This document shows positions 2,056-32,076 of a stretch of DNA of 32,112 nt, one piece after another. Positions within the stretch are counted from its first letter, which is position 1; every line of letters starts with the position of its first letter. This DNA is from Actinomycetes bacterium (lineage in GTDB: Bacteria; Actinomycetota; Acidimicrobiia; Acidimicrobiales; Acidimicrobiaceae): assembly GCA_021786375.1 (NCBI GenBank), contig JAJYNL010000008.1, forward strand, positions 1 through 32,112, written 5' to 3'. The translations under genes and the position numbers were made by a program. The notes below the pieces were generated by a model. It was given only the letters and a program-made list of their open reading frames with translations, was not told the origin of the DNA and did not search any database.

Positions 2056-2706
2056 CAGTACCTCGTCACTAATCAGGCAACGAGGAAACACTAGCTTAGC
2101 GAGTCAGCTGGCGTCTGCACACCGCGGGGAACAAATTGGCTACGCACCATGAGCTGATCACTGAGTCGTTTGCTTGTTCAATCGAGTCCGGCGCTCCGGC
2201 GCTCCGGCGCGCACGCGGACGATCTCGATATGTCTTGGAAGGATCACCGGGGCATACCAGCTTGGTCACGAAGGGCGTCAAGCGTCGAGTTTGGCCCCTC
2301 GGGTGCCTTACTGGATTCGATATTCGAAGACCTGCGCCTATTTGTACGTTTGAACCTCGTACAAGACGTACCCTTCGTCCGCCGCTTGACTTGACTCATC
2401 GGCGGGCCGGCAACAATCTGAGGCCGGCGCGATACCACGGTGCGCCATAGGCACTGCATGGGCGTCTTTCCAAGCGATCCGGTTAGGGCCCGTATTTTGG
2501 GTCCCCGTTGCTGCTTCGTGCCGGTGTTCGGATCCTATCGGGCTGCTCAGGTGGGGATTCCGCGGCCGGTGTGCGCACACTTCTTCAGAGTCTTGTTCTC
2601 GGGAATCCAAATCCGCCGTGAGCCCTGTTTTTGACGGAATCCCCCGCGGCTTCCTGTGGGTAGTCGTAAACTCGTCACAAGTGTCAGCCACAATGAGGGA
2701 ATGCGA
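2056..2706. other. Intergenic stretch of about 650 bp without a convincing gene
   Basis: Short frames on both strands have no recognisable product and no good ribosome binding site. I looked for SRP RNA, tmRNA and RNase P core motifs and saw none. There is a short 8-bp repetition around 2189-2211. A 10-bp inverted repeat, GGGGATTCCG at 2553-2562 and CGGAATCCCC at 2635-2644, flanks the region upstream of the secreted-protein gene. The right end should contain that gene's promoter: a TAAACT hexamer at 2667-2672 is a possible -10 box, with no clear -35. Confidence 0.6.
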
Positions 2707-3522
2707 GTGCGCACCAGATCACGTAAAGTAGCCCGACGCGCCAGCCATCTCGGGGCAAAAGGCATTCTGGGCATAGCGGCTGTGACCTTGGCCTGGCTTG
2801 GGTTGCTGCCGATTTCGGCGATCGCAGCGACATCCAACCCTTATAGCGGTACCGGCTACGACGTCTCCTATCCCAATTGCACCGCGAGTCAACCCCCGTC
2901 GGGGGCCACCTTCGCCCTGATCGGTGTCGGCGGGGGCCGTGCCTTCACTTCGAATTCCTGCGCCGGGTCGGAATTGAAGAGTGCCGCCGGACTCCCCGTG
3001 TCGCTTTACTACAACACCGGGTATGCGGGGTCTTTTGCGCGCCAGATCGACGGGACGTGCCTCAGCGACGTCTCCAATGCGGGCGTTTTCTCCAAACTAA
3101 GTGGTCACAAGCTCTCCCAGGCACAGCAGGCTTGGGAGATAGGTTGCAGCGAGGCTTCCTATGCGGCTACCTACGCCGCCTCCTCGCTCGGGGTGTCTAA
3201 TCCTCCCGTGTCGTGGTGGGCCGATGTCGAAACCGGCAATAGCTGGTCCACGAACACCAGCCTCAACCAGTTCGCCCTCGACGGCATGAGCTATTTCATG
3301 TCCAACAATGGCAATGGCGTCGGGGGTTTTTACTCCTCGCCGTCTATGTGGGCAAAGATCGCCGGCAACTCGAGCTGGAACACTACTCCGGCTATGTCTG
3401 GCAGCTGGGTGGCCGGCTTGCAGCCGCCCTGCTCGACCAGTCCTGTCTTGGGTGGAGCCCCTACCTGGCTGGTCCAGAGCGGCAGCATCGGGGGTCTTGA
3501 CCAGGACACCGCTTGTTCTTGA
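2707..3522 (+). CDS. Secreted GH25-like (DUF1906-type) protein, short form
   Basis: The N-terminus has several Arg/Lys, a hydrophobic segment (GILGIAAVTLAWLGLLPI) and a likely signal peptidase site after AIA, so it is probably exported. The mature part resembles glycoside-hydrolase-25-like domains: it begins GYDVSYPNC, has a DVE motif in WWADVETGNSW, then VGGFYSSPSMW, and ends DQDTAC. The same blocks occur in the protein at 14848-16272 (GADISWPQC, WWLDVELPGN, VGIYSSKYQF, DPDYAC), so the two are paralogues. Muramidase or other glycan-binding activity is inference. I prefer GTG at 2707, 6 bases after GAGGGA, over ATG at 2701, which abuts that site. The 3' end carries a 22-bp tandem duplication that relocates the stop. 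Confidence 0.8.
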   Translation: MRTRSRKVARRASHLGAKGILGIAAVTLAWLGLLPISAIAATSNPYSGTGYDVSYPNCTASQPPSGATFALIGVGGGRAFTSNSCAGSELKSAAGLPVSLYYNTGYAGSFARQIDGTCLSDVSNAGVFSKLSGHKLSQAQQAWEIGCSEASYAATYAASSLGVSNPPVSWWADVETGNSWSTNTSLNQFALDGMSYFMSNNGNGVGGFYSSPSMWAKIAGNSSWNTTPAMSGSWVAGLQPPCSTSPVLGGAPTWLVQSGSIGGLDQDTACS

Positions 3523-14847: not shown

Positions 14848-16272
14848 ATGGGATTTGGCCACGCGGCGCGTCGTCTTGGCCTGGCGCTCTTGCTTACTAT
14901 TGCCGTGCTGGCCATTGGGTGTAGGGTGAACGCGCCCGTCGTGCCTACCCGCACCTTTGCCCTGTCACCCATCTCGACGACTTTGAGCCCAAGCTATGAC
15001 ATGGTTGCCGCCGACGGGGGAATCTTCACCTTCGGGAACGCGGGCTTCTGGGGCTCCATGGGTGGCACCACTCTGAACAAGCCGATCGTCGGCATGGCCG
15101 CCACCCCAGACGGCCAAGGATACTGGCTGGTTGCCGCCGACGGGGGAATCTTCACCTTCGGGAACGCGGGCTTCTGGGGCTCCATGGGTGGCACCACTCT
15201 GAACAAGCCGATCGTCGGCATGGCCGCCACCCCAGACGGCCAAGGATACTGGCTGGTTGCCGCCGACGGGGGAATCTTCACCTTCGGGAACGCACCCTTC
15301 TACGGCTCCATGGGTGGCACCACTCTGAACAAGCCGGTCGTCGGTATGGCCGCCGACCCCGTCACCGGCGGCTACTGGCTGGTCGCCTCCGACGGCGGCG
15401 TCTTTTCTTTCAACGCACCCTTCTACGGCTCCATGGGTGGCACCACTCTGAACAAGCCCGTGGTAGGTATAGCCCAGACCTATTCCATGAACCCCTATTC
15501 GACCGGCATGTACGGGGCGGATATTTCTTGGCCTCAGTGTCCGGACTCGCCGCTGAATCCGATCACGCAGTTCCCGGCCAATAATGGAGTCGGTGTGGTC
15601 GGTGCTACCTCGGTTTCAGCACGCGTGCCAGTAGGAAGTGCGTTTCCGACCTGGAGCGAAGCATTTGCGACGAATCCCTGCCTCGGCTCGGAGTTCAAGA
15701 TGGCCCAGGCTGCAGGTGCTCATGTCTCCCTGTACACGGTGCTGTGGTCGCCTTCGGCGCCGAGTTCCGGCGATACTCAGCTTTTCTCCGGTCCGGAGGG
15801 GACGTGTGCGAGCACTGCGCCGCTGACTTCCACCGCCGCCCTCGACTGCCAGGCCTATGACTGGGGCTACAACATCGCGCTGGCCGCCCTCGGCTACTCC
15901 TCCGCGCAAGGTGCCTACTCCAACCTTTGGTGGCTCGACGTTGAGCTGCCTGGCAACGGAAACGTACTGTTTGGTACCGACACCACTGCCAACGACAACG
16001 TCATATCCGGCGCTGTCTACGCCCTGAAGACCCTTGGCTACCAGGTCGGCATTTATTCAAGCAAGTACCAGTTCGCTTCGATCGCCGGATCGGGTTACTC
16101 TCCCGGAGCCCCGATCTGGATCGCAACTGCAAACACGGTTTCCAGCCTGCCCTCCTACTGCACGTCCTCGAGCTCCTTCTTTGGCGGCGGAACCCCGTGG
16201 CTGATCCAGGGAGCAGCGATCCCGATCACGCCGAACGCGAGCTCTTATGTCGATCCGGACTACGCCTGCTAG
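14848..16272 (+). CDS. Secreted protein with four 42-residue repeats and a C-terminal GH25-like domain
   Basis: 474 residues. The N-terminus has a basic start, a hydrophobic stretch (LGLALLLTIAVLAIGC) and a Cys that could be a lipobox, though position -3 is Ala, so lipid attachment is uncertain. Residues about 50-210 are four repeats of the type VAADGGIFTFGNAGFWGSMG, continuing GTTLNKPIVGMAA; repeats 1 and 2 are nearly identical at the DNA level, and the fourth is degenerate. Such repeats probably form a beta-propeller or cell-surface binding region. The C-terminal 250 residues start GADISWPQC and contain WWLDVELPGN, VGIYSSKYQF and a final DPDYAC, shared with the protein at 2707-3522. A GAGGAGC site lies 6 bases before the ATG. 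Glycan binding or hydrolysis is inferred. Confidence 0.85.
   Translation: MGFGHAARRLGLALLLTIAVLAIGCRVNAPVVPTRTFALSPISTTLSPSYDMVAADGGIFTFGNAGFWGSMGGTTLNKPIVGMAATPDGQGYWLVAADGGIFTFGNAGFWGSMGGTTLNKPIVGMAATPDGQGYWLVAADGGIFTFGNAPFYGSMGGTTLNKPVVGMAADPVTGGYWLVASDGGVFSFNAPFYGSMGGTTLNKPVVGIAQTYSMNPYSTGMYGADISWPQCPDSPLNPITQFPANNGVGVVGATSVSARVPVGSAFPTWSEAFATNPCLGSEFKMAQAAGAHVSLYTVLWSPSAPSSGDTQLFSGPEGTCASTAPLTSTAALDCQAYDWGYNIALAALGYSSAQGAYSNLWWLDVELPGNGNVLFGTDTTANDNVISGAVYALKTLGYQVGIYSSKYQFASIAGSGYSPGAPIWIATANTVSSLPSYCTSSSSFFGGGTPWLIQGAAIPITPNASSYVDPDYAC
15002..15295. repeat. 126-bp direct repeats inside the secreted-protein gene
   Basis: The sequence starting at 15002 recurs at 15128 with a period of 126 bp (42 codons). 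It is almost identical for the first two units and into the third, up to about 15295; the third and fourth units then diverge. The repeat unit covers VAADGGIFTFGNA through PDGQGYWL. Near-perfect DNA identity over more than 250 bp indicates recent duplication or gene conversion within the gene. Confidence 0.93.
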
Positions 16273-16275
16273 AAG

Positions 16276-16746
16276 TCAGCTTGGTGTAGCCGCCCTGTGC
16301 TGCCTCCGGTAGCAGTCCCGGCAGAGGCCGATGATGGAAAAGTGGTGGGCGCGCGTGTAGAAGCCGAGCCGTGCCTCTAATTCCATCTCCAGGCGCTCGG
16401 TGAGATCCCGAGGTGCTTCGATGATCTTGCCGCAACTTTCGCACACCAGGTGCTGGTGGACGTTCTCTTCGAGGTGGTAGATGGCCCGTCCATGCCCGAG
16501 ATGCACATGTTCGACCACGCCCAGCTTTTCCAGCGCTTCCAGCGTGCGATAGACGGTCGAGAGGTGAATGTCGGGGCTGCCGGCCTGGATGCGCTCGAAG
16601 ATCTCCTCGGCGGAGACATGGCTCTCGGAGTCAACTATTGCGGTGATCACCGCCAGTCGTGACGGGGTTACCCGCCCTCCATGGGAGTGAATTGCCTCGA
16701 TGGTGCGCTCCAGCACTCCATTTTGGCCCGCGCCTTTGCTGCTCAT
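16276..16746 (-). CDS. Fur family transcriptional regulator
   Basis: 156 residues. The winged-helix part includes RVTPSRLAVI (25-34) and HLSTVYRTLEALEKLGVVEH (61-80), the DNA-recognition region of the family. The C-terminal domain has HQHLVCESCGK (Cys102, Cys105) and CRDC (Cys142, Cys145), a structural zinc site. Sensing of iron, zinc, manganese or peroxide cannot be distinguished from sequence. The ATG overlaps the stop of the response regulator gene (ATGA), so it is the third gene of a coupled operon. The 3' end lies only 3 bases from the converging secreted-protein gene. Confidence 0.93.
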   Translation of the reverse strand: MSSKGAGQNGVLERTIEAIHSHGGRVTPSRLAVITAIVDSESHVSAEEIFERIQAGSPDIHLSTVYRTLEALEKLGVVEHVHLGHGRAIYHLEENVHQHLVCESCGKIIEAPRDLTERLEMELEARLGFYTRAHHFSIIGLCRDCYRRQHRAATPS

Positions 16747-17474
16747 GGTCTTTCCGTGCGTGACTCGAACCTATATCCGAGTCCGCGAACCGTGGTTATA
16801 TAGGCGGGGTTCGAGGGGTCGGGCTCTATCTTCGAGCGGAGCCGCTTTATGTGCACGTCGAGGGTCTTGGTGTCGCTCGTGTGGAAAGGACCCCAAACCC
16901 GGTCGACGATCATGTCACGCGTCATTACCCGGTTAGGGTTCGACATGAGGAGCTCCAGTAGCTCGAACTCCTTCAGGGGGAGCGGCACCGGCTTGTCGTT
17001 CACCCTTAGCTCGTGGCGAGCCGTGTCGAGGGTGACCGACCCGATGCGAAGCATCTCCGAGTTGGTGGTCGACGCCGATTCCGGCTGCATTTCCGAGTTG
17101 GCCGGCGCTCGGCGGAGCACGGCACGGATTCGCGCAGTGAGCTCGCGCATCGAGAACGGCTTGACGACGTAGTCGTCAGCGCCGACTTCGAGCCCGACCA
17201 CCGTGTCCACCTCCGAGCCGCGCGCAGTCACCATTATGATCGGGACCTGGCTCTGTGTGCGGATCTCCTTGCAAACGTCGATGCCCGAGAGTTTTGGCAG
17301 CATCAGATCCAGGAGAATTACGTCGGGAGACGACTCCTTCCAGACCTCGATAGCCTCGCGGCCGTCTCGGGCCACCAGGACTGTCATGCCCTCCTTGACA
17401 AGGCCAAGGGTCAGGGCGTCTATGAAGGACTCCTCGTCTTCGGCCACCAGCACGGTGGTCTCTGTCTTGCTCAC
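16743..17474 (-). CDS. OmpR/PhoB-type response regulator (RegX3-like)
   Basis: 243 residues. The receiver domain has the acidic pair in VAEDEESF (about 12-14), the phosphoacceptor Asp56 in DVILLDLMLPK and the Lys in VVKPFSMREL. A winged-helix DNA-binding domain occupies the C-terminal 100 residues, with LKEFELLELLMSNPNRVMTR and TVRGLGYRFE. It starts with GTG at 17474, overlapping the kinase stop (GTGA), and ends overlapping the Fur gene. The arrangement resembles the SenX3-RegX3 phosphate-response pair of actinobacteria, but no phoU or pst gene is in the window. Confidence 0.94.
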   Translation of the reverse strand: MSKTETTVLVAEDEESFIDALTLGLVKEGMTVLVARDGREAIEVWKESSPDVILLDLMLPKLSGIDVCKEIRTQSQVPIIMVTARGSEVDTVVGLEVGADDYVVKPFSMRELTARIRAVLRRAPANSEMQPESASTTNSEMLRIGSVTLDTARHELRVNDKPVPLPLKEFELLELLMSNPNRVMTRDMIVDRVWGPFHTSDTKTLDVHIKRLRSKIEPDPSNPAYITTVRGLGYRFESRTERP

Positions 17475-18541
17475 TGGCCGTCTCCATCGCTGCTCGGAAG
17501 AAGGATCCTAAAGGTGGTGCCTGCGCCTTCGCGAGACTCCACCTCTACCGCGCCGTTGTGGTTGTTGACCGCGTGGCGCACGATCGAAAGCCCCAGCCCG
17601 GTGCCTCCCGTCTGGCGAGAGCGGGCTTGGTCGACTCTATAGAACCGCTCGAAGATTCGTTCGAGATCCTTTTGAGGGATTCCGATCCCGTGATCGGCCA
17701 CGCTGATCTCGATCCGTCCATCCTCGGCTCGGCGCAAGCCGACGCGAACCCACGAGTCCTTGTCGGAGTATTTGATCGCATTGTCGATCAGATTGGCGAT
17801 GGCCGAGCGCATCTGTCGCCGGTCGGCCTCGATTACAAACCCCGAGTCTTCGATAGCGAAACCGAGTTCGACCCTTGCGGTATCGGCTGCGGAGGCCATC
17901 TGCTCCACCACCTCGTGGCAAAGATCTGCTAGGTCCGTCGGCTCCTTGTGCGATGCCCCTTCGGATTCGATCCTGCTCAGATCAAGCAGGTCATCAATAA
18001 CCTTGGCCACCCTGAAGGTTTCGTTCTGTATGCGGTTCGCAAGCCGCTGCCTGACGGCCGGGTCGTCCTCATAGGCCAACGTCTCCGCGAGCAGGCCGAG
18101 AGCTCCAATGGGAGTTCTGAGTTCGTGGCTCACGTTTGCCACGAAGTCGCGGCGAATGGCGTCAAGCTGATTGCGAACCGTTAGATCCTCCACGACGGTG
18201 ACGACCGCGGTTGCATCGCGAGCGGGTTTCGTGTGGATCACGAAGTCGCGCCGAGGTGGTCCGAAAATCGAGAACGTGTGCTTCTTGAAGCGGCCCCCGA
18301 GTGCGTCGGCGACGGCCTCTTCTATGGCGCGCATGAGCCCAGCCTCCTCGTGCCGTGCCATCCCAAGGTCGCGCGCGGTGGCGTTCTCGAAGATCGGCTC
18401 ACCGCTCGTCCTGTCGTGGATGAACACCGCCTGGGAGATCGCGTCCAGCGCACTACCGAGGCACTGCGCGTAGGTGCCGGAGTCTTGTTCCGGAAGGGAG
18501 GATCCCGTTTGAGGTATCGAGCTTTCTGGCATCATGGGCAT
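17471..18541 (-). CDS. Soluble sensor histidine kinase (SenX3-like)
   Basis: 356 residues. Residues 20-120 resemble a PAS-type sensor (AISQAVFIHDRTSGEPIFEN). The phosphoacceptor is His139 in FVANVSHELRTP. The catalytic part has the N-box NLIDNAIKYS, DHGIGI, the F-box FERFYRVDQARSRQ and GGTGLGLSI. No transmembrane segment is present, unlike most SenX3 proteins, so sensing is probably cytoplasmic or through a membrane partner. The first of three coupled genes on the minus strand, it is divergent from the type IV secretion-like operon with about 137 bp between. ATG codons at 18541 and 18532 are both possible starts. Confidence 0.92.
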   Translation of the reverse strand: MPMMPESSIPQTGSSLPEQDSGTYAQCLGSALDAISQAVFIHDRTSGEPIFENATARDLGMARHEEAGLMRAIEEAVADALGGRFKKHTFSIFGPPRRDFVIHTKPARDATAVVTVVEDLTVRNQLDAIRRDFVANVSHELRTPIGALGLLAETLAYEDDPAVRQRLANRIQNETFRVAKVIDDLLDLSRIESEGASHKEPTDLADLCHEVVEQMASAADTARVELGFAIEDSGFVIEADRRQMRSAIANLIDNAIKYSDKDSWVRVGLRRAEDGRIEISVADHGIGIPQKDLERIFERFYRVDQARSRQTGGTGLGLSIVRHAVNNHNGAVEVESREGAGTTFRILLPSSDGDGQ

Positions 18542-18666
18542 CGTCTTCTAGGGCGGCTACCAACGAGACTACAACCTGACGCCGCCGTGTCGCTGATGGA
18601 AGTGAGCCGCCAGTACCGGAGTACGACGAAAAATAGCTAAATAGATTGGAACATTCCGAAATATGG

Positions 18667-18672
18667 TATGGT
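18667..18672 (+). promoter_or_regulatory. Candidate -10 box for a leaderless start of the T4SS-like operon
   Basis: TATGGT lies 6 bases before the ATG at 18679, within an AT-rich stretch that stands out from the surrounding sequence. A TTGGAA at 18646-18651 is a possible -35 with a short 15-base spacer. No Shine-Dalgarno sequence precedes the ATG. A GGAA-ca-TTCC inverted repeat at 18648-18657 lies in the same region and could be an operator. Confidence 0.4.
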
Positions 18673-18678
18673 GAGTCC

Positions 18679-18993
18679 ATGCTTTCGCCGTTCAACTTCT
18701 TTGCCCCGGGGATCGTGCTCGATGTGAGCGTCACCCCCGATATGAATGCGCTACCTGGAGGTGCCGCTTTACAGTCGATCGCGAATGGCGCGGCCGCATG
18801 GGCGCTGGTGATATCGCTGCTGGGACTACTTATCGGAGCGGCGATCTGGGCAATCGGAGCCCATTCCAGCAACTATCAACAGACCTATACCGGGAAGCGC
18901 ACCCTAATCGCATCGGCGCTCGCCGCGGTGCTGGTTGGTGCGGCACCGGCTCTGATCAACTTCTTCTTCCACCTGGGCCAATCGGTCCACTGA
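18679..18993 (+). CDS. Small two-helix membrane subunit, DUF6112-like (T4SS VirB2/TrbC-like)
   Basis: 104 residues from ATG at 18679; an in-frame ATG at 18646 is less likely. There is a hydrophobic N-terminal part, then helix 1 (AAAWALVISLLGLLIGAAIWAIGA), a short polar loop SSNYQQTYTGKR, and helix 2 (LIASALAAVLVGAAPALINFFF). This pattern fits the DUF6112-type small subunits found at the start of actinobacterial type IV secretion gene clusters, which resemble pilin-like VirB2 proteins in layout. It is the first gene of the operon; the next gene begins 21 bases on. Confidence 0.72.
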   Translation: MLSPFNFFAPGIVLDVSVTPDMNALPGGAALQSIANGAAAWALVISLLGLLIGAAIWAIGAHSSNYQQTYTGKRTLIASALAAVLVGAAPALINFFFHLGQSVH

Positions 18994-19014
18994 GTCCAAA
19001 GCGCGATACGGACC

Positions 19015-20016
19015 ATGACAGCTGCGCTCTCTTCGGCCCTGGCCGGCGTCTTCTCGCTGTTCCTGGGGCACTCGCTCCTCGGTGCCGACCGCTACCTCGC
19101 GTCGCGCCTTGGGTCCGTCGCCAGTGGCGCAGGAGATCCTGCGGTGCTTTCAGGATGGTTCTCGTCCGCGATCATACGCTTGTTGCCGGGAGTTGAGCTG
19201 GTGGCACTGATCGCCACCCTCGTGTCCGCCGGCATGGCGGCCTTCGCGCATGGAGATCCTATGGGCGCCGTGCGCTCCCTGGTGGTGGCGATTCCCGCTG
19301 TGGGGATCTTTTCGGGAGTGGAGATCGGAGTGGTCGCACTCCTTGTAACGGCCAGCGACAGCCTGGCGGCCTTCATCTTTCGTGCTTTCGCCGCCTCCGC
19401 AGGCCATGGTGCCTCACTGGGAGCGCCGCTTTCGGGAGTTCAGGTTCCGATGCTGGTCGGCATCCTGCTGTTCGGCGCGTATCTGGTTCTCGCGCTGCTT
19501 CTTTGGCTGGAGATTGCGCTGCGGTCGGCCGCGATCTATATGCTCTGCGCGCTGCTTCCCTTCCTCGCGGCGCTGGCTATCTACAGGGGCGCACGGGTCG
19601 TTCTCTTCCGATCGCTGGCGGCTTTGGGTGCTCTGCTTGTGATGAAAGTCCTCATCGGAATGGGTCTTGGTCTCAGCCTGGCGATCGCCTCCGCATCGGT
19701 GGCCGATCCAGGTCAGATGGTAATGGCCATCTCCTGCCTCTTGGTGAGCGCGCTTTCCCCTCTGGCACTCGTTCGTCTCTTCTCACTGGAATACTTCCCC
19801 GGCCACGATATGGAGCGTGGCGCGCGTCTTGCGGTGCGCGCAGCATCGACTGCCTCCACATTTCTCGGCTCACTGGGCTCCTTTCCCGGCGAGGCGATAG
19901 ACGCCGCGCCGGGCATAGCGGCGATCCCGTTTGCCGAGGGCGACCCGACCTGGGAAGGAAACACCAACCCCGGGTGGGGGGACACCGGCCAAGGAGGCAC
20001 CTTTGGCGGGGAATGA
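19015..20016 (+). CDS. VirB6/TrbL-like multi-spanning membrane protein
   Basis: 333 residues with about seven hydrophobic segments (for example VELVALIATLVSAGMAAFAH, VPMLVGILLFGAYLVLALLL, AIYMLCALLPFLAALAIY). In the middle it has LWLEIALRSAAIYMLCALLP, a segment with the character of the TrbL/VirB6 family core. The last 70 residues are hydrophilic and Gly-rich (GDTGQGGTFGGE end) and probably face the cytoplasm. In type IV systems this protein forms the inner-membrane channel. The next gene starts 7 bases after the stop. Confidence 0.75.
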   Translation: MTAALSSALAGVFSLFLGHSLLGADRYLASRLGSVASGAGDPAVLSGWFSSAIIRLLPGVELVALIATLVSAGMAAFAHGDPMGAVRSLVVAIPAVGIFSGVEIGVVALLVTASDSLAAFIFRAFAASAGHGASLGAPLSGVQVPMLVGILLFGAYLVLALLLWLEIALRSAAIYMLCALLPFLAALAIYRGARVVLFRSLAALGALLVMKVLIGMGLGLSLAIASASVADPGQMVMAISCLLVSALSPLALVRLFSLEYFPGHDMERGARLAVRAASTASTFLGSLGSFPGEAIDAAPGIAAIPFAEGDPTWEGNTNPGWGDTGQGGTFGGE

Positions 20017-20023
20017 GCGGCAG

Positions 20024-21199
20024 ATGGGGTCGGCAAAATCATTCCATTCTTCCTTCAGGACCGGTCTCTGGGGAATGGAACGGCTGGAACTCGGTGTCGC
20101 AATCGGCGCACTGGCCATCGCCGGCTCGATCCTGGGAATGCATTTGGGGCCCGGCGAGGGGCTGTTCGGAGCGACGGCGGTCGCCCTGCTCGGACTCGCT
20201 CTAGGGGCTGTGCGGATCCAGGAGGTCTCCGCGGCGAGTCTCATCGGGCGCATGGCTGCCTTTGCCTTGCACAGCCAGGCTCGGACCAGTCTCGCGAGTT
20301 CTGTCGGAGCGTGCGAAGCACTCGCATACGAGGTTGCTTTGAACCGTTCTCCTTACCTGGAGGGTGGCGCAGGCAGGCAGGAGCTGGCGCGTCTGCTGAG
20401 CGGTGTTCTTGATTCGCTGGCGCGCTCGGAATCCCCGACAGCCTTGGCGGCTTTCAGCACTTCCAGGGTTCGGCCGGGCTCCCCCCGCGAGCGGCAACGC
20501 CCCTCGTTGGGAGTTGGGGATTCCTATGCGGCGGAGCTCGCGGAGCTCGAGGAGGGGTTGCTGGCCAGGGAGCACGGCCCCGAGAGCTTCCTGGTTCTGC
20601 TTCCGGCAACGCCATCCGCCGGTGTCGACGCGCTTGCCGGTGCTCGGAGCAACGCACCCGAACTTTTCGCCCGACGTCTGCCGGCGGATGGCGGCAAGCT
20701 TTCCGCAAGTCTTCCTCGAGACGGAAGGTTGCGTGAGCGCTTCTCAAGTCTTGGTGCAGCGGGCGAAAAGCTGGTCATCTACAGCGTGGCGCGATGGCCG
20801 CACAGCGCTGGGCCCGGCGTGTTCGCCCGCCTCTTGCTCAACTCTCCCACGCGATTCGTGGTGGCGGTGCTTTTCGAGCCCGCGGCCCCGGAGCGACTTG
20901 CCCGAGTGGTCAGGACGCGGAGGACCAGGCTCGAGGCTGACGGACGGCTCGGAGCAGAGATGGGCTATATGCGTGGGGCGCAGCGGCAGCTTCTCCGTGC
21001 CGCGCTGGGTGAGGCCGAGGGCCAGGTTCTGGCTGGGCGTGCAGGAGTTGTGATGTCCGCGCTGGTGATTGCTTGGCATCCGCCTGGAGATCGTGAGAAC
21101 CTGCCTGCCACTTTCGCGATGAGCGGTATCACGTTGCGCAGAGAATTCGGCCGCCAAGCCGAGGCGCTCGGTGCAATTCTCCGGATGGCGGGGCGATGA
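20024..21199 (+). CDS. SCO6880-like type IV secretion membrane protein (VirB4 N-terminal-like)
   Basis: 391 residues from ATG at 20024. The frame is open back to 19931 but would overlap the VirB6-like gene. Two membrane helices sit near the N-terminus (LGVAIGALAIAGSILGMHLG and GLFGATAVALLGLALGAV). A cytoplasmic part of about 320 residues follows, without a Walker motif, ending in REFGRQAEALGAILRMAGR. Position and layout match the SCO6880-type membrane proteins of actinobacterial type IV clusters, which stand between the channel protein and the VirB4-type ATPase. The family call rests mainly on layout. The stop overlaps the next start (ATGA). Confidence 0.6.
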   Translation: MGSAKSFHSSFRTGLWGMERLELGVAIGALAIAGSILGMHLGPGEGLFGATAVALLGLALGAVRIQEVSAASLIGRMAAFALHSQARTSLASSVGACEALAYEVALNRSPYLEGGAGRQELARLLSGVLDSLARSESPTALAAFSTSRVRPGSPRERQRPSLGVGDSYAAELAELEEGLLAREHGPESFLVLLPATPSAGVDALAGARSNAPELFARRLPADGGKLSASLPRDGRLRERFSSLGAAGEKLVIYSVARWPHSAGPGVFARLLLNSPTRFVVAVLFEPAAPERLARVVRTRRTRLEADGRLGAEMGYMRGAQRQLLRAALGEAEGQVLAGRAGVVMSALVIAWHPPGDRENLPATFAMSGITLRREFGRQAEALGAILRMAGR

Positions 21200-22449
21200 T
21201 ACCGCCGCCGCGCATGCCTGCTCGTCGGGTTCTGGAGGCGACATCGACCGCTGCAACGCTCATGCCCGGCTATGGCGAGGCGGACCATTCGAAGCTCCGC
21301 CCCTTGCTGGGGGCGTCGCGTTTTGGTGGCGCCTTCGGTTACAACCCCTTTACGCTCTACGCGGCGAATGCCGTTTCCAGCCCAAACGCCCTCGTTCTGG
21401 GCAAGATAGGCAACGGGAAGTCGGCGCTGGTGAAGGCTTACCTTGCCCGCATGCTGGCTTATGGATATCCTGCGCTGGTGATCGACCCAAAGGGCGAGTA
21501 CCGGGCGCTCGCCGAGCGCTTCGGTGAGGGCGCGGTGACGCTGATGCGGGGCGGCGAGGGTGTCAATCCATTCGTCCCTCCATCGATTGGGGACTCGGCC
21601 TCGGCCCTCGAGTTCAACTGCGAAATGGCCGAACGTGCGATCGAGGCACTGACCGGACATCCTGTTTCCGCACTCGAAGGTGCGTCGGTGCGCAGCGTGC
21701 TCGGTGCGCTGGGGGACAAGGTGGGATTCCTCGCGCTTCGCCGCGGGCTTGCTGACCTGGACGAGCGTGGTGGCCCCCTCGAGTGGCTGGGCGATTACCA
21801 AAAAGGGAGTCTCGCCGAGGCGGTGGTCGCTCTGGATCGGCTTCTCCAGTCGGGCCTGGTCTCGGCTGGAGAGCGGGCGGGCTCGCTGGCTTCCAGGCTG
21901 GGCAGGGGCATTGTTGCAGTCGATCTATCCGCAGCTTTCGGGAGTTCTCTCTACAGCCTCGCTGCCACAATGGTTCTCGCCTCGGTGCGCGCACTCCAGC
22001 TGCGACCGGGCTCGCCACGGCTCGTAGTCGCTGTGGACGAGATTTGGGCGCTGGGGGAGGAGCCTGAGGCTGCGCGCTGGCTGCGAAGCTATTGGAAACT
22101 ATCCCGTGCGCTGGGAATCGCGAACCTGGGAGTCACGCATCGACTTTCGGATCTGCGCCACGGTGCAGGAGCCGGCTCGGCTGGATTGCTGCAGGATTCG
22201 GAGACCATCGTGACCTTCGCGATGGAAACGGGCGACGCCGAGGCGATATGCCACGAGCGCGGACTCGCACCCGAGCTCGCCCGCACAATCGCTCGGCTTC
22301 CCAAGGGAAGCGCCCTGTGGCAGTTCGGCAAAAGTGTATGCGTGGTGGATCACATCTTGACGCGAACCGAGCGGCAGATTTGCGACACCGACGCGCGGTT
22401 GCGCGGCGACGGGCCGGAACTCGCTGCCCTTGGGGAGAATCCGCTTTGA
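21196..22449 (+). CDS. VirB4/TraC-like ATPase
   Basis: 417 residues. The N-terminal 60 residues are short and contain GYNPFTLY. Walker A is GKIGNGKS (69-76), followed by YPALVIDPKGEYRALAERFG (91-110), the strand and loop typical of VirB4/TraC ATPases. Walker B is VVAVDEIW with Asp281-Glu282. Near the C-terminus are NLGVTHRLSDLRHG and the LLQDSETIVTF segment. It lacks the usual large VirB4 N-terminal domain, which may be supplied by the preceding protein, so VirB4 may be split over two genes. It likely energises assembly or substrate transfer at the membrane. The start overlaps the preceding stop (ATGA). Confidence 0.85.
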   Translation: MIPPPRMPARRVLEATSTAATLMPGYGEADHSKLRPLLGASRFGGAFGYNPFTLYAANAVSSPNALVLGKIGNGKSALVKAYLARMLAYGYPALVIDPKGEYRALAERFGEGAVTLMRGGEGVNPFVPPSIGDSASALEFNCEMAERAIEALTGHPVSALEGASVRSVLGALGDKVGFLALRRGLADLDERGGPLEWLGDYQKGSLAEAVVALDRLLQSGLVSAGERAGSLASRLGRGIVAVDLSAAFGSSLYSLAATMVLASVRALQLRPGSPRLVVAVDEIWALGEEPEAARWLRSYWKLSRALGIANLGVTHRLSDLRHGAGAGSAGLLQDSETIVTFAMETGDAEAICHERGLAPELARTIARLPKGSALWQFGKSVCVVDHILTRTERQICDTDARLRGDGPELAALGENPL

Positions 22450-23813
22450 ATCCCGGCGCGGAAGCAGCTGTCATAGCGGGTGTCGCGGCGCTTGGTTATG
22501 TAGCCATCCAAGGGGGTGAACGCAAGGGAAGGGACGGCGCCCCGGGCCGACCGGCTAGGCGCCGGCGCTCAGGGTTCGGGCACGGCGGCTTTGCCGGAGC
22601 CGGATACGCTCTGGAGTTCCGCCACGCTCCGGCCGGGGTGGTGCTCGGAACCGCCAGCCGGTTGCCCGTCCGACTCCATCGGCGTGATTCGGCGGTTGTC
22701 TTCGGACCGACGCAATCCTTCAAGACCAGCTCGCTCGTGGTTCCGGCCATTCGCTCCTTCCCGGGCGCGATCGTTGCGACCAGCGTGAAAGAGGACATTC
22801 TCTCTGCAGCCCACGAAGGGCGCGATCCTGATTCGGTGCTCGTATTCGACCCTTTCGGCGTCGGCGAGAACGGCAACTGTTTTTGGAACCCGCTTGTGCC
22901 CGGCATGGGCGACGCCGAGGCAAGGCACCTGGCATCGGTGATTTGCCAGCGCCCTTCGGGCGGTCTGGAAGACGCGGAGTTCTGGATGGCGCTGGCTGCC
23001 AAGATGCTTTACCCGCTCCTTTTGGCCTCCTCGTTTCTGGGAGCGGATCTCGGCAAAGTTCGCGACTGGGTTGAGGCGAGGGACTTCCGTGAGGCGTCCG
23101 AGGAGTTGATTGCGAGGGGGAGCAACGAGGCCATGTCCGCGCTGGCCTCCTCTCTCGACCGGGAGGAACGTCAGCTTTCCAGCGTCCTCACCACCCTGGA
23201 GCGCCTGCTCGAGCCTTTCGTGGCCGGTATTGTCGCGCCCAGCGGGCGCAATGCGCGCCTCTTTTCGGCCGAGCCGGGCTGCGTGCTATGTCTTCTGGCT
23301 CCACCGAACCGCCAGTCGGAGGCCGGGCCTCTCTTCGCGGCGGTTTTGCGTCTTCTCCTGGACGACGCCTTCGCCACTCCACCGCGCTCAGGGTTGCTCC
23401 TGGCGCTGGACGAGGCCGCCAATTGCGCGCCTATACCCAACCTGGATGAGATCGTCTCGGTGATTGCCGCCTTCGGTATCCAGTCGTTGACCGTCTTCCA
23501 CGACTTTGCCCAGGTGCGGGCCCGCTACGGCGAGCGGGCGGCGACGCTTGTCAACAATCATCGCGCCAAGCTTTTTCTGAGCGGCATTTCCGACCCCGAG
23601 ACCCTGGCGCTGGCCGAGACGCTGTGTGGTTCCACGACGGCAGGTGCCCTGGAAGAGGCCCTGATGCCACGCGGTGGACTCCGATCGCTCGCACCGGGGC
23701 GTGGACTGCTCGTCTACGGCCATCGGCGCCCCGTACTGCTGCGCTTGAACCCCGGCCGAGGCAGCTCCGGACGGTACAGTATTCGAGCCTTGTTGCCGAT
23801 ACCTAAAAAGTGA
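22446..23813 (+). CDS. VirD4/TraG-like coupling ATPase
   Basis: 455 residues from TTG at 22446, which overlaps the previous stop (TTGA) and has GGGGAG 8 bases upstream; the longer frame from 22092 is out of place. One N-terminal membrane helix (AAVIAGVAALGYVAIQGG) precedes a basic stretch. Walker A is GPTQSFKTS (87-95), where Phe replaces the usual Gly before Lys. SVKEDILSAAHEGRDPDS and VFDPFGVG follow, then Walker B LLLALDEAAN with Asp322-Glu323. TVFHDFAQVRARYG (349-362) and NNHRAKLFLSGISDPETLAL (370-389) match the VirD4/TraG type. Such proteins select and deliver substrates to the secretion channel. The stop overlaps the next GTG. Confidence 0.88.
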   Translation: MNPGAEAAVIAGVAALGYVAIQGGERKGRDGAPGRPARRRRSGFGHGGFAGAGYALEFRHAPAGVVLGTASRLPVRLHRRDSAVVFGPTQSFKTSSLVVPAIRSFPGAIVATSVKEDILSAAHEGRDPDSVLVFDPFGVGENGNCFWNPLVPGMGDAEARHLASVICQRPSGGLEDAEFWMALAAKMLYPLLLASSFLGADLGKVRDWVEARDFREASEELIARGSNEAMSALASSLDREERQLSSVLTTLERLLEPFVAGIVAPSGRNARLFSAEPGCVLCLLAPPNRQSEAGPLFAAVLRLLLDDAFATPPRSGLLLALDEAANCAPIPNLDEIVSVIAAFGIQSLTVFHDFAQVRARYGERAATLVNNHRAKLFLSGISDPETLALAETLCGSTTAGALEEALMPRGGLRSLAPGRGLLVYGHRRPVLLRLNPGRGSSGRYSIRALLPIPKK

Positions 23814-24253
23814 TGTTTGCCGAACTAGTCGAGGTGCTCGACGCCGAAAAGGTCATCTTGGAAGAGCTGGTCCTCGGAGTCGAGGCGGAGATCCGCTTCT
23901 TGACCGGTGAGCGATTCGATCTTCTTGCCCAAGCCAATCGAGAGCTGCAGCGCATCTCCCGGAGGTTGAAGGATGCCGAGCTTTACCGCGCTCTCGCGAC
24001 CGGTGAGCTCGAGAGCCACCTGGGGCTCGAGCCGATGGCGGCACTGGCTGCCATCGCCGAGAAGGCGCCCGAGCCATGGCGCGAGCTGCTCTCCCTAAGG
24101 CGCGATGAGCTCGTGGACCTTACCAAGCGTCTCGAGCGCTCCACCACGTTGCTGGCGCGACGGATTTCAGACAAGATCGGTGAACTGGAAGAGCCCGTCA
24201 AGAGCGCGGAAAAGCCGCAATCCGCAGAAGGACATGTGACTACGGAGGCATGA
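23810..24253 (+). CDS. FlgN-like coiled-coil protein
   Basis: 147 residues from GTG at 23810 (overlap GTGA with the preceding stop); ATG at 23813 is an alternative. It is almost all helical with heptad character: LVEVLDAEKVILEELVLGVE, FLTGERFDLLAQANRELQRI, then a C-terminal helix through DELVDLTKRLERSTTLLARR. Length, spacing of helices and the FLTGERFDLL turn resemble the FlgN family of flagellar export chaperones. No flagellar gene is in the window, so here it could be a chaperone for a substrate of the type IV-like apparatus. The resemblance is by eye and needs a profile search. Confidence 0.55.
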   Translation: MMFAELVEVLDAEKVILEELVLGVEAEIRFLTGERFDLLAQANRELQRISRRLKDAELYRALATGELESHLGLEPMAALAAIAEKAPEPWRELLSLRRDELVDLTKRLERSTTLLARRISDKIGELEEPVKSAEKPQSAEGHVTTEA

Positions 24254-24426
24254 TGACCGACGATCGAGACGTTGCCGCTATGGCTGGGGCCCACGGTTCT
24301 CCGCACGCGGCCGGCGAGGCTTCTCCGATCCCGCGTGAACGCCAAGCCGCGCTTCTGCACTGCGGCATGGCGATGCTGGTCTGTTCCGGCCTGCCCCAGC
24401 CGTCACTTGCCGAGTTCCTTCGGTGA
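24250..24426 (+). CDS. Small protein of unknown function, last gene of the T4SS-like operon
   Basis: 58 residues from ATG at 24250, which overlaps the stop of the FlgN-like gene in an ATGA arrangement; a second ATG follows at 24253. The N-terminal half is polar (MTDDRDVAAMAGAHGSPHAA) and the second half has a short amphipathic or hydrophobic segment with two Cys (ALLHCGMAMLVCSGLPQPSL). No family is recognised. The overlap argues for translation. It converges with the NatB-like gene, whose stop is 34 bases away. Confidence 0.5.
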   Translation: MMTDDRDVAAMAGAHGSPHAAGEASPIPRERQAALLHCGMAMLVCSGLPQPSLAEFLR

Positions 24427-31957: not shown

Positions 31958-32005
31958 CTTGGATCCACCGACCCGGCCCGTCAAGAAGGAGCTCATGAAT
32001 TAGAA

Positions 32006-32073
32006 AAGTGCCCCCTGAGCTGGTAGAATAGCAGTTATTACACAGCCGCTAACTACCAATCAGAAAGGCACTT
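32006..32073. repeat. Short inverted repeat near the right edge
   Basis: AAGTGCC at 32006-32012 and GGCACTT at 32067-32073 are perfect 7-bp inverted arms 54 bases apart, in a stretch more AT-rich than the rest of the window. They could belong to the left end of an insertion sequence or to an mRNA leader. A TAGAAT box at 32024-32029 may be a -10 element. Confidence 0.45.
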
Positions 32074-32076
32074 CCT

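Follow-up and report, generated by a model that had tools for sequence, protein, structure and literature searches.

We analysed a 32,112-nucleotide stretch of DNA from a member of the Acidimicrobiaceae (contig JAJYNL010000008.1 of assembly GCA_021786375.1; hereafter the window), which is one entire contig of a 119-contig, 2.83-Mb assembly and carries a cluster of genes resembling a type IV secretion system (T4SS). Seven plus-strand open reading frames (ORFs), here called g1 to g7, lie head to tail at 18679-24426, with a gap of 21 bases between g1 and g2, a gap of 7 bases between g2 and g3, and 4-base overlaps at the remaining four junctions. An initial annotation made from the sequence alone had described these seven genes and their junctions as a T4SS-like operon, and its coordinates were exact to the base. 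In what follows, G000 is the window genome, f1 is the family Acidimicrobiaceae (where the NCBI taxonomy places Acidithrix, within the Acidimicrobiales), f23 is a second family, and L-numbers denote fetched loci.

The first gene (g1, 18679-18993, 104 aa) encodes a two-helix, pilin-like subunit. It matched the DUF6112 profile (PF19607) at 5e-11, above the cut-off, and had matches to T4SS_pilin (2e-4) and TrbC below their cut-offs, which makes it the VirB2-like subunit of a conjugation-type T4SS. In an alignment of 18 sequences, 27 columns of this protein are invariant. The initial annotation had proposed to confirm the gene identities by profile searches, and this was borne out in part: g1, g4 and g5 matched DUF6112, DUF87 and VirD4 models, respectively, whereas g2, g3 and g7 gave no profile match, and the identities of g2 and g3 come from fold comparison only. 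The AlphaFold2 model of g2 (19015-20016, 333 aa) is all-helical with a pLDDT of 73, and its best four Foldseek matches are R388 VirB5/VirB6 stalk chains (best E 0.027, probability 1.00, none below 0.001), which we take, weakly, to suggest a VirB6-like membrane protein.

Comparison of folds also clarified the third gene (g3, 20024-21199, 391 aa), which had been likened to SCO6880. We modelled g3 with AlphaFold2 from 20 relatives (mean pLDDT 66, pTM 0.66), and the top 12 Foldseek matches all came from VirB4-containing complexes of R388 (best E 2.4e-6, TM-score by query 0.38-0.46), followed by a chain of the ESX-3 translocon at 1e-3. The next gene (g4, 21196-22449, 417 aa) matched the DUF87/HerA profile (PF01935) at 1.3e-6, above the cut-off, with weak matches to VirB4-family NCBIfam models far below their cut-offs and AAA_10 and CD1110-type matches also below theirs. 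Its Walker A motif is intact, and GxxxxGKS is conserved in the patterns listed. Because the fold of g3 matches R388 VirB4, we believe that VirB4 is split over two genes, with g3 providing the N-terminal half and g4 the ATPase half; the profile match of g4 and the fold of g3 together identify a VirB4-family ATPase. The VirB4 N-terminal model (PF03135) had no match anywhere in the window genome, as this half of the protein is represented by the diverged g3. The two N-terminal helices of g3 may be a stand-in for VirB3, and the fold matches themselves show VirB4 only.

The fifth gene (g5, 22446-23813, 455 aa, TTG start) matched T4SS-DNA_transf (PF02534) at 1.3e-19 and TraG-D_C at 1.9e-13, as a VirD4-type coupling ATPase would. 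The last two genes encode small proteins, namely an FlgN-like protein with a GTG start (g6, 23810-24253), which matched PF05130 right at the threshold (30.8 bits, cut-off 30.5), and a 58-aa protein (g7, 24250-24426) that is conserved in the relatives G003, G011 and G004.

To describe the distribution of the operon, we collected 140 related loci by a scan with the g1 alignment and kept the best 80 of these, all of which have actinobacterial titles. Genes in the relatives were called with a caller of our own, which missed some of them, and the loci were therefore also read in six frames. Of 60 relatives, 43 had a g4 match, among them 31 of the 35 f1 relatives and all 18 f1 relatives that are at least 90% complete, while a g1 match was found in 58 of the 61 f23 genomes (39/39 of the good ones). 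In a class-wide sample of 198 genomes, g1 matches occurred in only 26, so we regard the operon as a feature of particular clades rather than of the class. Its address is also conserved: in both f1 and f23 it follows serS and a RegX3-like two-component pair that is divergent from g1. In 72 of the 77 loci with enough upstream sequence the divergent histidine kinase is no more than 1.5 kb from g1, serS lies within 6.5 kb upstream in 46/51, and all of g2-g5 are found within 6.5 kb in 39/52. Downstream of g5, the most widespread gene cluster is present in 14 loci, and none of the neighbour clusters is a conserved substrate-like gene adjoining the operon. At least one f1 genome (G010) has its g4 match away from the conserved address.

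Measures of selection and descent point in the same direction. Relative to G011, dN/dS ranges from 0.05 to 0.29 across g1-g7, and because every value falls in this range the seven ORFs are more than chance. Tree distances of g2-g5 correlate with those of serS at 0.64-0.76, to be compared with 0.78 for the response regulator and 0.57 for a neighbouring ABC gene; the short g1 gave 0.24 (L150 was excluded from the distance trees). In a tree of 69 g4 sequences, the operon type was separate from plasmids and conjugative elements except for two misfits (support 0.62); here, L059 carried the operon-type label although it lies off the conserved address. Six loci contain g1-g3 only, and we rejected the idea that they are degenerate, since in five of the six genomes g4 is found elsewhere, followed by g5; the sixth genome, G063, had no g4 match. 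We detected no integrase, replication gene or relaxase in the window or among the conserved neighbours, and the patchy distribution and variable site that mark mobile elements are not seen here, as the operon is near-universal in two families at one address. For these reasons, together with the low dN/dS, we rejected a mobile element. The residence of the operon and its T4SS nature are thus well supported, in agreement with the initial annotation, and what is described is a chromosomal, vertically kept T4SS core comparable to a Ced-like domesticated apparatus. None of the outcomes that would have spoken against such an operon, namely a mobile island around it, a sporadic distribution or ATPases of unrelated families, occurred in the data examined. 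In one relative (L132:13378-15719), a serine-recombinase-like gene, named by eye, follows a g4 cut to 317 aa and resembles an insertion into the operon.

The same core also occurs in conjugative elements. Conjugative-type clusters with the same gene order encode NlpC/P60, M23 or CHAP hydrolases, and five of these loci hold a small single-helix protein that we take to be VirB8-like, for which there was no profile match. The plasmids NZ_CP012477.1 and NZ_CP104318.1 carry the same core in the same order, interspersed with extra genes in NZ_CP104318.1, and their g4 proteins share 27-31% identity with that of the operon. Both plasmids have a C40 peptidase upstream, whereas the resident operon has none beside it, and NZ_CP012477.1 has a MobF relaxase downstream of the core, whereas no relaxase adjoins the resident operon. 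As first noted from the sequence, neither a relaxase nor a VirB8-like protein nor a wall hydrolase was found beside it.

A relaxase is nonetheless encoded elsewhere. Among 36 genomes searched, none had a PF03432-type relaxase, while PF08751 (TrwC) matches were present in 30, including 21 of 22 f1 genomes, one of which is the window genome; several genomes, that of the window among them, had further TrwC matches. We fetched relaxase loci from 19 of the 21 f1 genomes and classed 18 of them as resident, the one in the window genome being L203 (G000:C54:56897-59308, minus strand, PF08751 at 1.1e-39). Fourteen of the 18 share one neighbourhood, made up of rnhB, a PIG-L-like gene, an acyl-CoA-ligase-like gene, a PafC/WYL regulator and typA (names assigned by eye except for the regulator), and the other four share a second one, in which L218 retains the typA side. 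In the alignment of resident relaxases, from which L204 and L222 were excluded (L205 was left out of alignment A4), residues Y15, H148, H159 and H161 are conserved in an HUH context. A TrwC domain with an N-terminal tyrosine and a three-histidine metal site marks MobF relaxases, and the resident proteins conform to this. The HUH motif was found in all 34 fetched relaxase loci, two of which are mobile-type, and the N-terminal tyrosine in 90% or more of the f1 set and 12/12 f23 loci. Several f23 relaxases were not called by our gene caller, and the positions therefore come from the relaxase scan of the genomes and the motifs from six-frame translation; the f23 proteins are short, with open frames of 335-500 aa. 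MobF relaxases usually have a C-terminal helicase domain. No helicase Pfam match was found in L203, L218, L219, L254, L263 or L265, and L266 had a weak AAA_30 match below the cut-off. The window genome contains a second TrwC-domain gene (L204, G000:C37:1138-4440) on a contig of 5.7 kb, with an AAA_30/UvrD-like helicase frame after it; this resembles a fragment of a mobile element with a typical MobF relaxase. A resident relaxase in genomes whose operon has none is new here, and a reading of the missing relaxase as pointing away from DNA transfer is not supported, given this MobF-type protein and a second VirD4-like protein elsewhere in the genome.

This second VirD4-like gene (L073, G000:C45:7733-9010, minus strand) has a profile match and a canonical P-loop and stands alone among housekeeping genes in the window genome. 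In f23, a homologue adjoins the relaxase in 12/12 loci (10/12 from gene calls), and another is found on the relaxase contig of f30 (L266). A regulator with a PafC/WYL domain is a further neighbour of the relaxase. It is located at L203:12061-14019 in the window genome, where it was named by profile, and a WYL gene lies near the relaxase in 14/18 resident f1 loci, and adjoins it in f23 (12/12 loci by clustering, 10/12 by direct search) and in f27 (L265). We consider this neighbour a possible DNA-damage link of the relaxase. In the 198-genome class sample, in which the relaxase scan scored at most five candidates per genome and can have missed matches, a relaxase match was found in 22 of 26 g1-positive genomes and 26 of 172 g1-negative ones (Fisher p 2.5e-12, uncorrected for descent), and in all 18 genomes with a g1 E-value below 1e-27. 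The two loci are 374 kb apart in G017, which is a single contig. In the f16 genome G050, g1 has a relaxase gene as its divergent neighbour and is followed by g2, g3, a repeat protein and g4, with no called g5, and this linkage of a relaxase to g1-g4 favours a joint function.

The operon is flanked by housekeeping genes, namely those for seryl-tRNA synthetase, Fur, the two-component pair, ABC-2 transporters, an MFS protein and an FAD oxidase, and tRNAs occur in the window only at 1.9-3.9 kb. The response regulator (16743-17474, minus strand, Response_reg and Trans_reg_C domains) is a divergent neighbour kept with the operon, and its closest solved structure is RegX3 (2oqr, 263 bits), with MtrA second at 200 bits. 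The histidine kinase (17471-18541, minus strand, HisKA and HATPase_c domains) is separated from g1 by a divergent intergenic region at 18542-18678. Of 81 loci, 35 have tandem 10-bp TGAAA repeats in the 400 bp that precede g1 (44 hits), whereas the rest of the sequence of the 81 loci yielded 7; in the window they persist in a decayed form at most. The divergent regulator is a candidate binder of these repeats, which is a guess on our part. RegX3-box-like GTTCAC repeats before g1 showed no enrichment over shuffled controls, which preserved single-base composition only. We rejected a regulatory site common to the operon and the relaxase, as the TGAAA repeats are a specific feature of the 400 bp preceding g1. 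Two secreted proteins of the window (2656-3522 and 14848-16272) had been proposed as GH25-like wall-remodelling partners, a suggestion that the profiles do not bear out, with no Pfam GH25 match up to an E-value of 0.01. The protein at 14848-16272 is a secreted repeat protein; GYWLVASDGG-type repeats were seen by eye in a relative of it, and relatives sit between T4SS genes in three other T4SS clusters (L062, L064 and L069). At the end of the window, 31959-32076 on the minus strand matches the actinobacterial small RNA family Ms_IGR-7 of Rfam with a score exactly equal to the gathering score.

In many Acidimicrobiaceae, g5 is followed by flgN-flgK-flgL-fliW-csrA-cheA (named by eye and by mutual homology), and it is conceivable on this ground that the operon is part of a flagellar apparatus. 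FlhA was above the cut-off in 29 of 35 f1 relatives, and FlgK was present in 10 of the 52 loci with enough sequence. However, the other 42 lack it, and the operon is kept in genomes with no FlhA match, namely those of the window, its sister G003, G016, G027 and G057. We therefore rejected a flagellar role, which is already contradicted and has next to no likelihood. No flagellin was found in the window genome, and no FlgK in G000, G003, G004, G016 or G027. G011 has a separate flgN together with flgK and flhA, while g6-g7 remain at its operon with dN/dS values of 0.12 for g6 and 0.20 for g7 between G011 and the window genome. Because of this separate flgN, and because g6 is kept where flagellar genes are missing, g6 looks like an FlgN copy retained by the operon. 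Selection on it after flagellar loss is only weakly shown, since the g6 genes of G000 and G003 differ by few changes (dS 0.037).

We lean somewhat towards the view that g1-g5 form a domesticated, vertically inherited conjugation-type core that works with the unlinked resident relaxase to move chromosomal DNA. The core would consist of g1 as the pilin-like subunit, g2 as the VirB6-like pore, g3 and g4 as the split VirB4, with g3 membrane-bound, and g5 as the coupling ATPase, and its partners would be the MobF-type relaxase together with the second VirD4-like protein, the latter at least for f23 and the window genome. The relaxase would nick a chromosomal site by means of its N-terminal tyrosine and remain on the 5' end, a coupling protein would dock it, and single-stranded chromosomal DNA would be fed along the channel formed by g1-g4 to a neighbouring cell or the outside. 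The divergent RegX3-like pair may set the expression of the operon, and the PafBC-like neighbour may make the relaxase side responsive to DNA damage. The parts, their folds, residence, selection, co-occurrence and intact catalytic-type motifs are what the sequences show; from these we infer the joint action of the loci, DNA as the substrate, the direction and the regulation.

Several observations weigh against this reading. The P-loop of g5 reads GPTQSFKT, with phenylalanine in place of the glycine that usually precedes the lysine. Among the 46 of the best 80 loci that yielded g5, the position is occupied by glycine (28 loci), phenylalanine (7), tyrosine (3), histidine (2), arginine (2) or methionine (1), with 3 unmatched, such that the glycine is replaced in 15/46. 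Models built from the conjugative relatives found a VirB8-like protein and a wall hydrolase in none of 81 operon loci, many of which are incomplete, a search that covered these loci and not other sites of the genomes. One operon-like cluster off the conserved address, L037 (G056, f22), whose g4 groups with the operon type, does have an NlpC/SLT hydrolase gene divergent from g1. Across 457 kb of relaxase loci there were 3 hits to the TGAAA repeats, all within coding calls and none before the relaxase, and alignments of the sequence upstream of the relaxase, from seven loci only, revealed no clear inverted repeat by eye that could be an origin of transfer. The relaxase is evolving more rapidly than the operon (dN/dS 0.26-0.31, N-terminal domain 0.18-0.35), those of f27 and f30 cluster with mobile ones, and the split between resident and mobile relaxases has a support of 0.24; for the operon and mobile types of g4, the corresponding figure is just the 0.62 given above. 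The f1 genome G010 (86% complete) has a mobile-type TrwC match only, and none of the 18 resident f1 loci, to which the search was confined, has a second VirD4 near the relaxase. The co-occurrence is confounded by descent, as 15 of the 18 strong cases come from two families and the cut at 1e-27 was set afterwards, and four of the 26 g1-positive genomes had no relaxase match.

Some of these points would be expected of a resident T4SS for protein secretion, which would export proteins to other cells or to the surface, with g6 as a chaperone in this genus and the relaxase serving otherwise. Such a system would fit an operon with no relaxase, VirB8-like or hydrolase gene, the retention of g6 in a genome that gave no FlhA, flagellin or FlgK, and unlinked relaxase loci that lack the promoter repeats of the operon. 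We think it unlikely, because the co-occurring and syntenic MobF relaxase has intact catalytic-type motifs, a second coupling protein lies beside that relaxase, and the operon has no conserved substrate-like neighbour. Less likely again is an envelope complex for chromosome segregation or differentiation that works inside the cell with no intercellular transfer, after the model of the resident cmdABCDEF genes of Streptomyces, which encode a VirB4-like protein and proteins resembling SCO6880 and SCO6881 in the sections of the source drawn on here (PMC2782261). The single ATPase named there is the VirB4-like CmdB (PMC2782261), whereas VirD4-type proteins and a relaxase have been kept here.

An importer comparable to the archaeal Ced system, in which VirB4 draws in DNA for repair or food, shares much with the operon, as Ced and Ted have a chromosomal core of VirB2, VirB6 and VirB4 and Ced takes DNA in, according to the part of the source used here (PMC9905601). 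The same part describes archaea as having no known relaxase homologue (PMC9905601), whereas the relaxase here would be donor-side and VirD4-type proteins are present, and we judge import to be very improbable. Finally, the operon might be the decaying remnant of an integrated conjugative element, in line with conjugative plasmids and elements that have the same core along with a hydrolase and, in one case, a relaxase. This is already contradicted by the low dN/dS throughout, the single address across two families, the intact Walker A of g4 and the fact that g4 and g5 stay together when apart from g1-g3 (5/6 genomes), and we give it scarcely any credence. Transfer of chromosomal DNA by the resident core and its unlinked relaxase is the explanation that we prefer.

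The gonococcal genetic island is an acquired island with a linked relaxase, in contrast to the unlinked core loci found here across whole families. It is similar in being a chromosomal T4SS with a relaxase, TraI, that secretes single-stranded DNA, as far as the consulted part of the source goes (PMC8716806). The closest precedents for domestication are Ced and Ted, conjugation machines of archaea that have no apparent relaxase, the first of which imports DNA; they likewise have a chromosomal conjugation-type VirB2 pilin, VirB6-like pore and VirB4 ATPase, as outlined in the excerpted account (PMC9905601). Compared with that account, the present system is bacterial, its VirB4 is split, and it has VirD4-type proteins and a resident MobF relaxase. 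In the cited portion of PMC2782261, the cmdABCDEF (SCO4126-4131) and SCO6871-6884 genes of S. coelicolor are resident, include VirB4-like proteins and proteins resembling SCO6880 and SCO6881, and are related to the conjugation genes of SLP2. By the same portion, loss of cmdABCDEF disturbs sporulation and chromosome segregation and leaves the transfer of an SLP2-derived plasmid unaffected (PMC2782261). It describes no relaxase partner for this role in sporulation and segregation, and our comparison rests on its description, with no direct alignment (PMC2782261). The Acidimicrobidae are mentioned once, as lacking FtsK-type elements, in the part seen of a 2011 survey of integrated elements in actinobacteria (PMC3218068), and we found no description of the present system in the titles and abstracts of the open-licence literature.

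Conjugation is usually ascribed to plasmids and integrated elements. Outside the archaea, no domesticated DNA-transfer conjugation apparatus was known to the authors of the Ced/Ted study, at least in the part of their article considered here (PMC9905601). We tentatively raise the possibility, which we hold at somewhat less than even, that the operon and relaxase are the first bacterial example of a fully domesticated, relaxase-driven conjugation system, in which the T4SS core, a coupling protein and the relaxase persist as unlinked, vertically inherited core genes in two or more Acidimicrobiales families and serve to pass chromosomal DNA to kin, perhaps in response to DNA damage by way of the PafBC-like regulator near the relaxase. 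Their occurrence in the core genomes of a large group of acid-loving and soil bacteria suggests that conjugation may have been taken over for the transfer of the cell's own DNA. If this is true, gene exchange driven by a relaxase would be an inbuilt capacity of entire bacterial families, and this would bear on the recombination and adaptation of acidophilic iron oxidisers.

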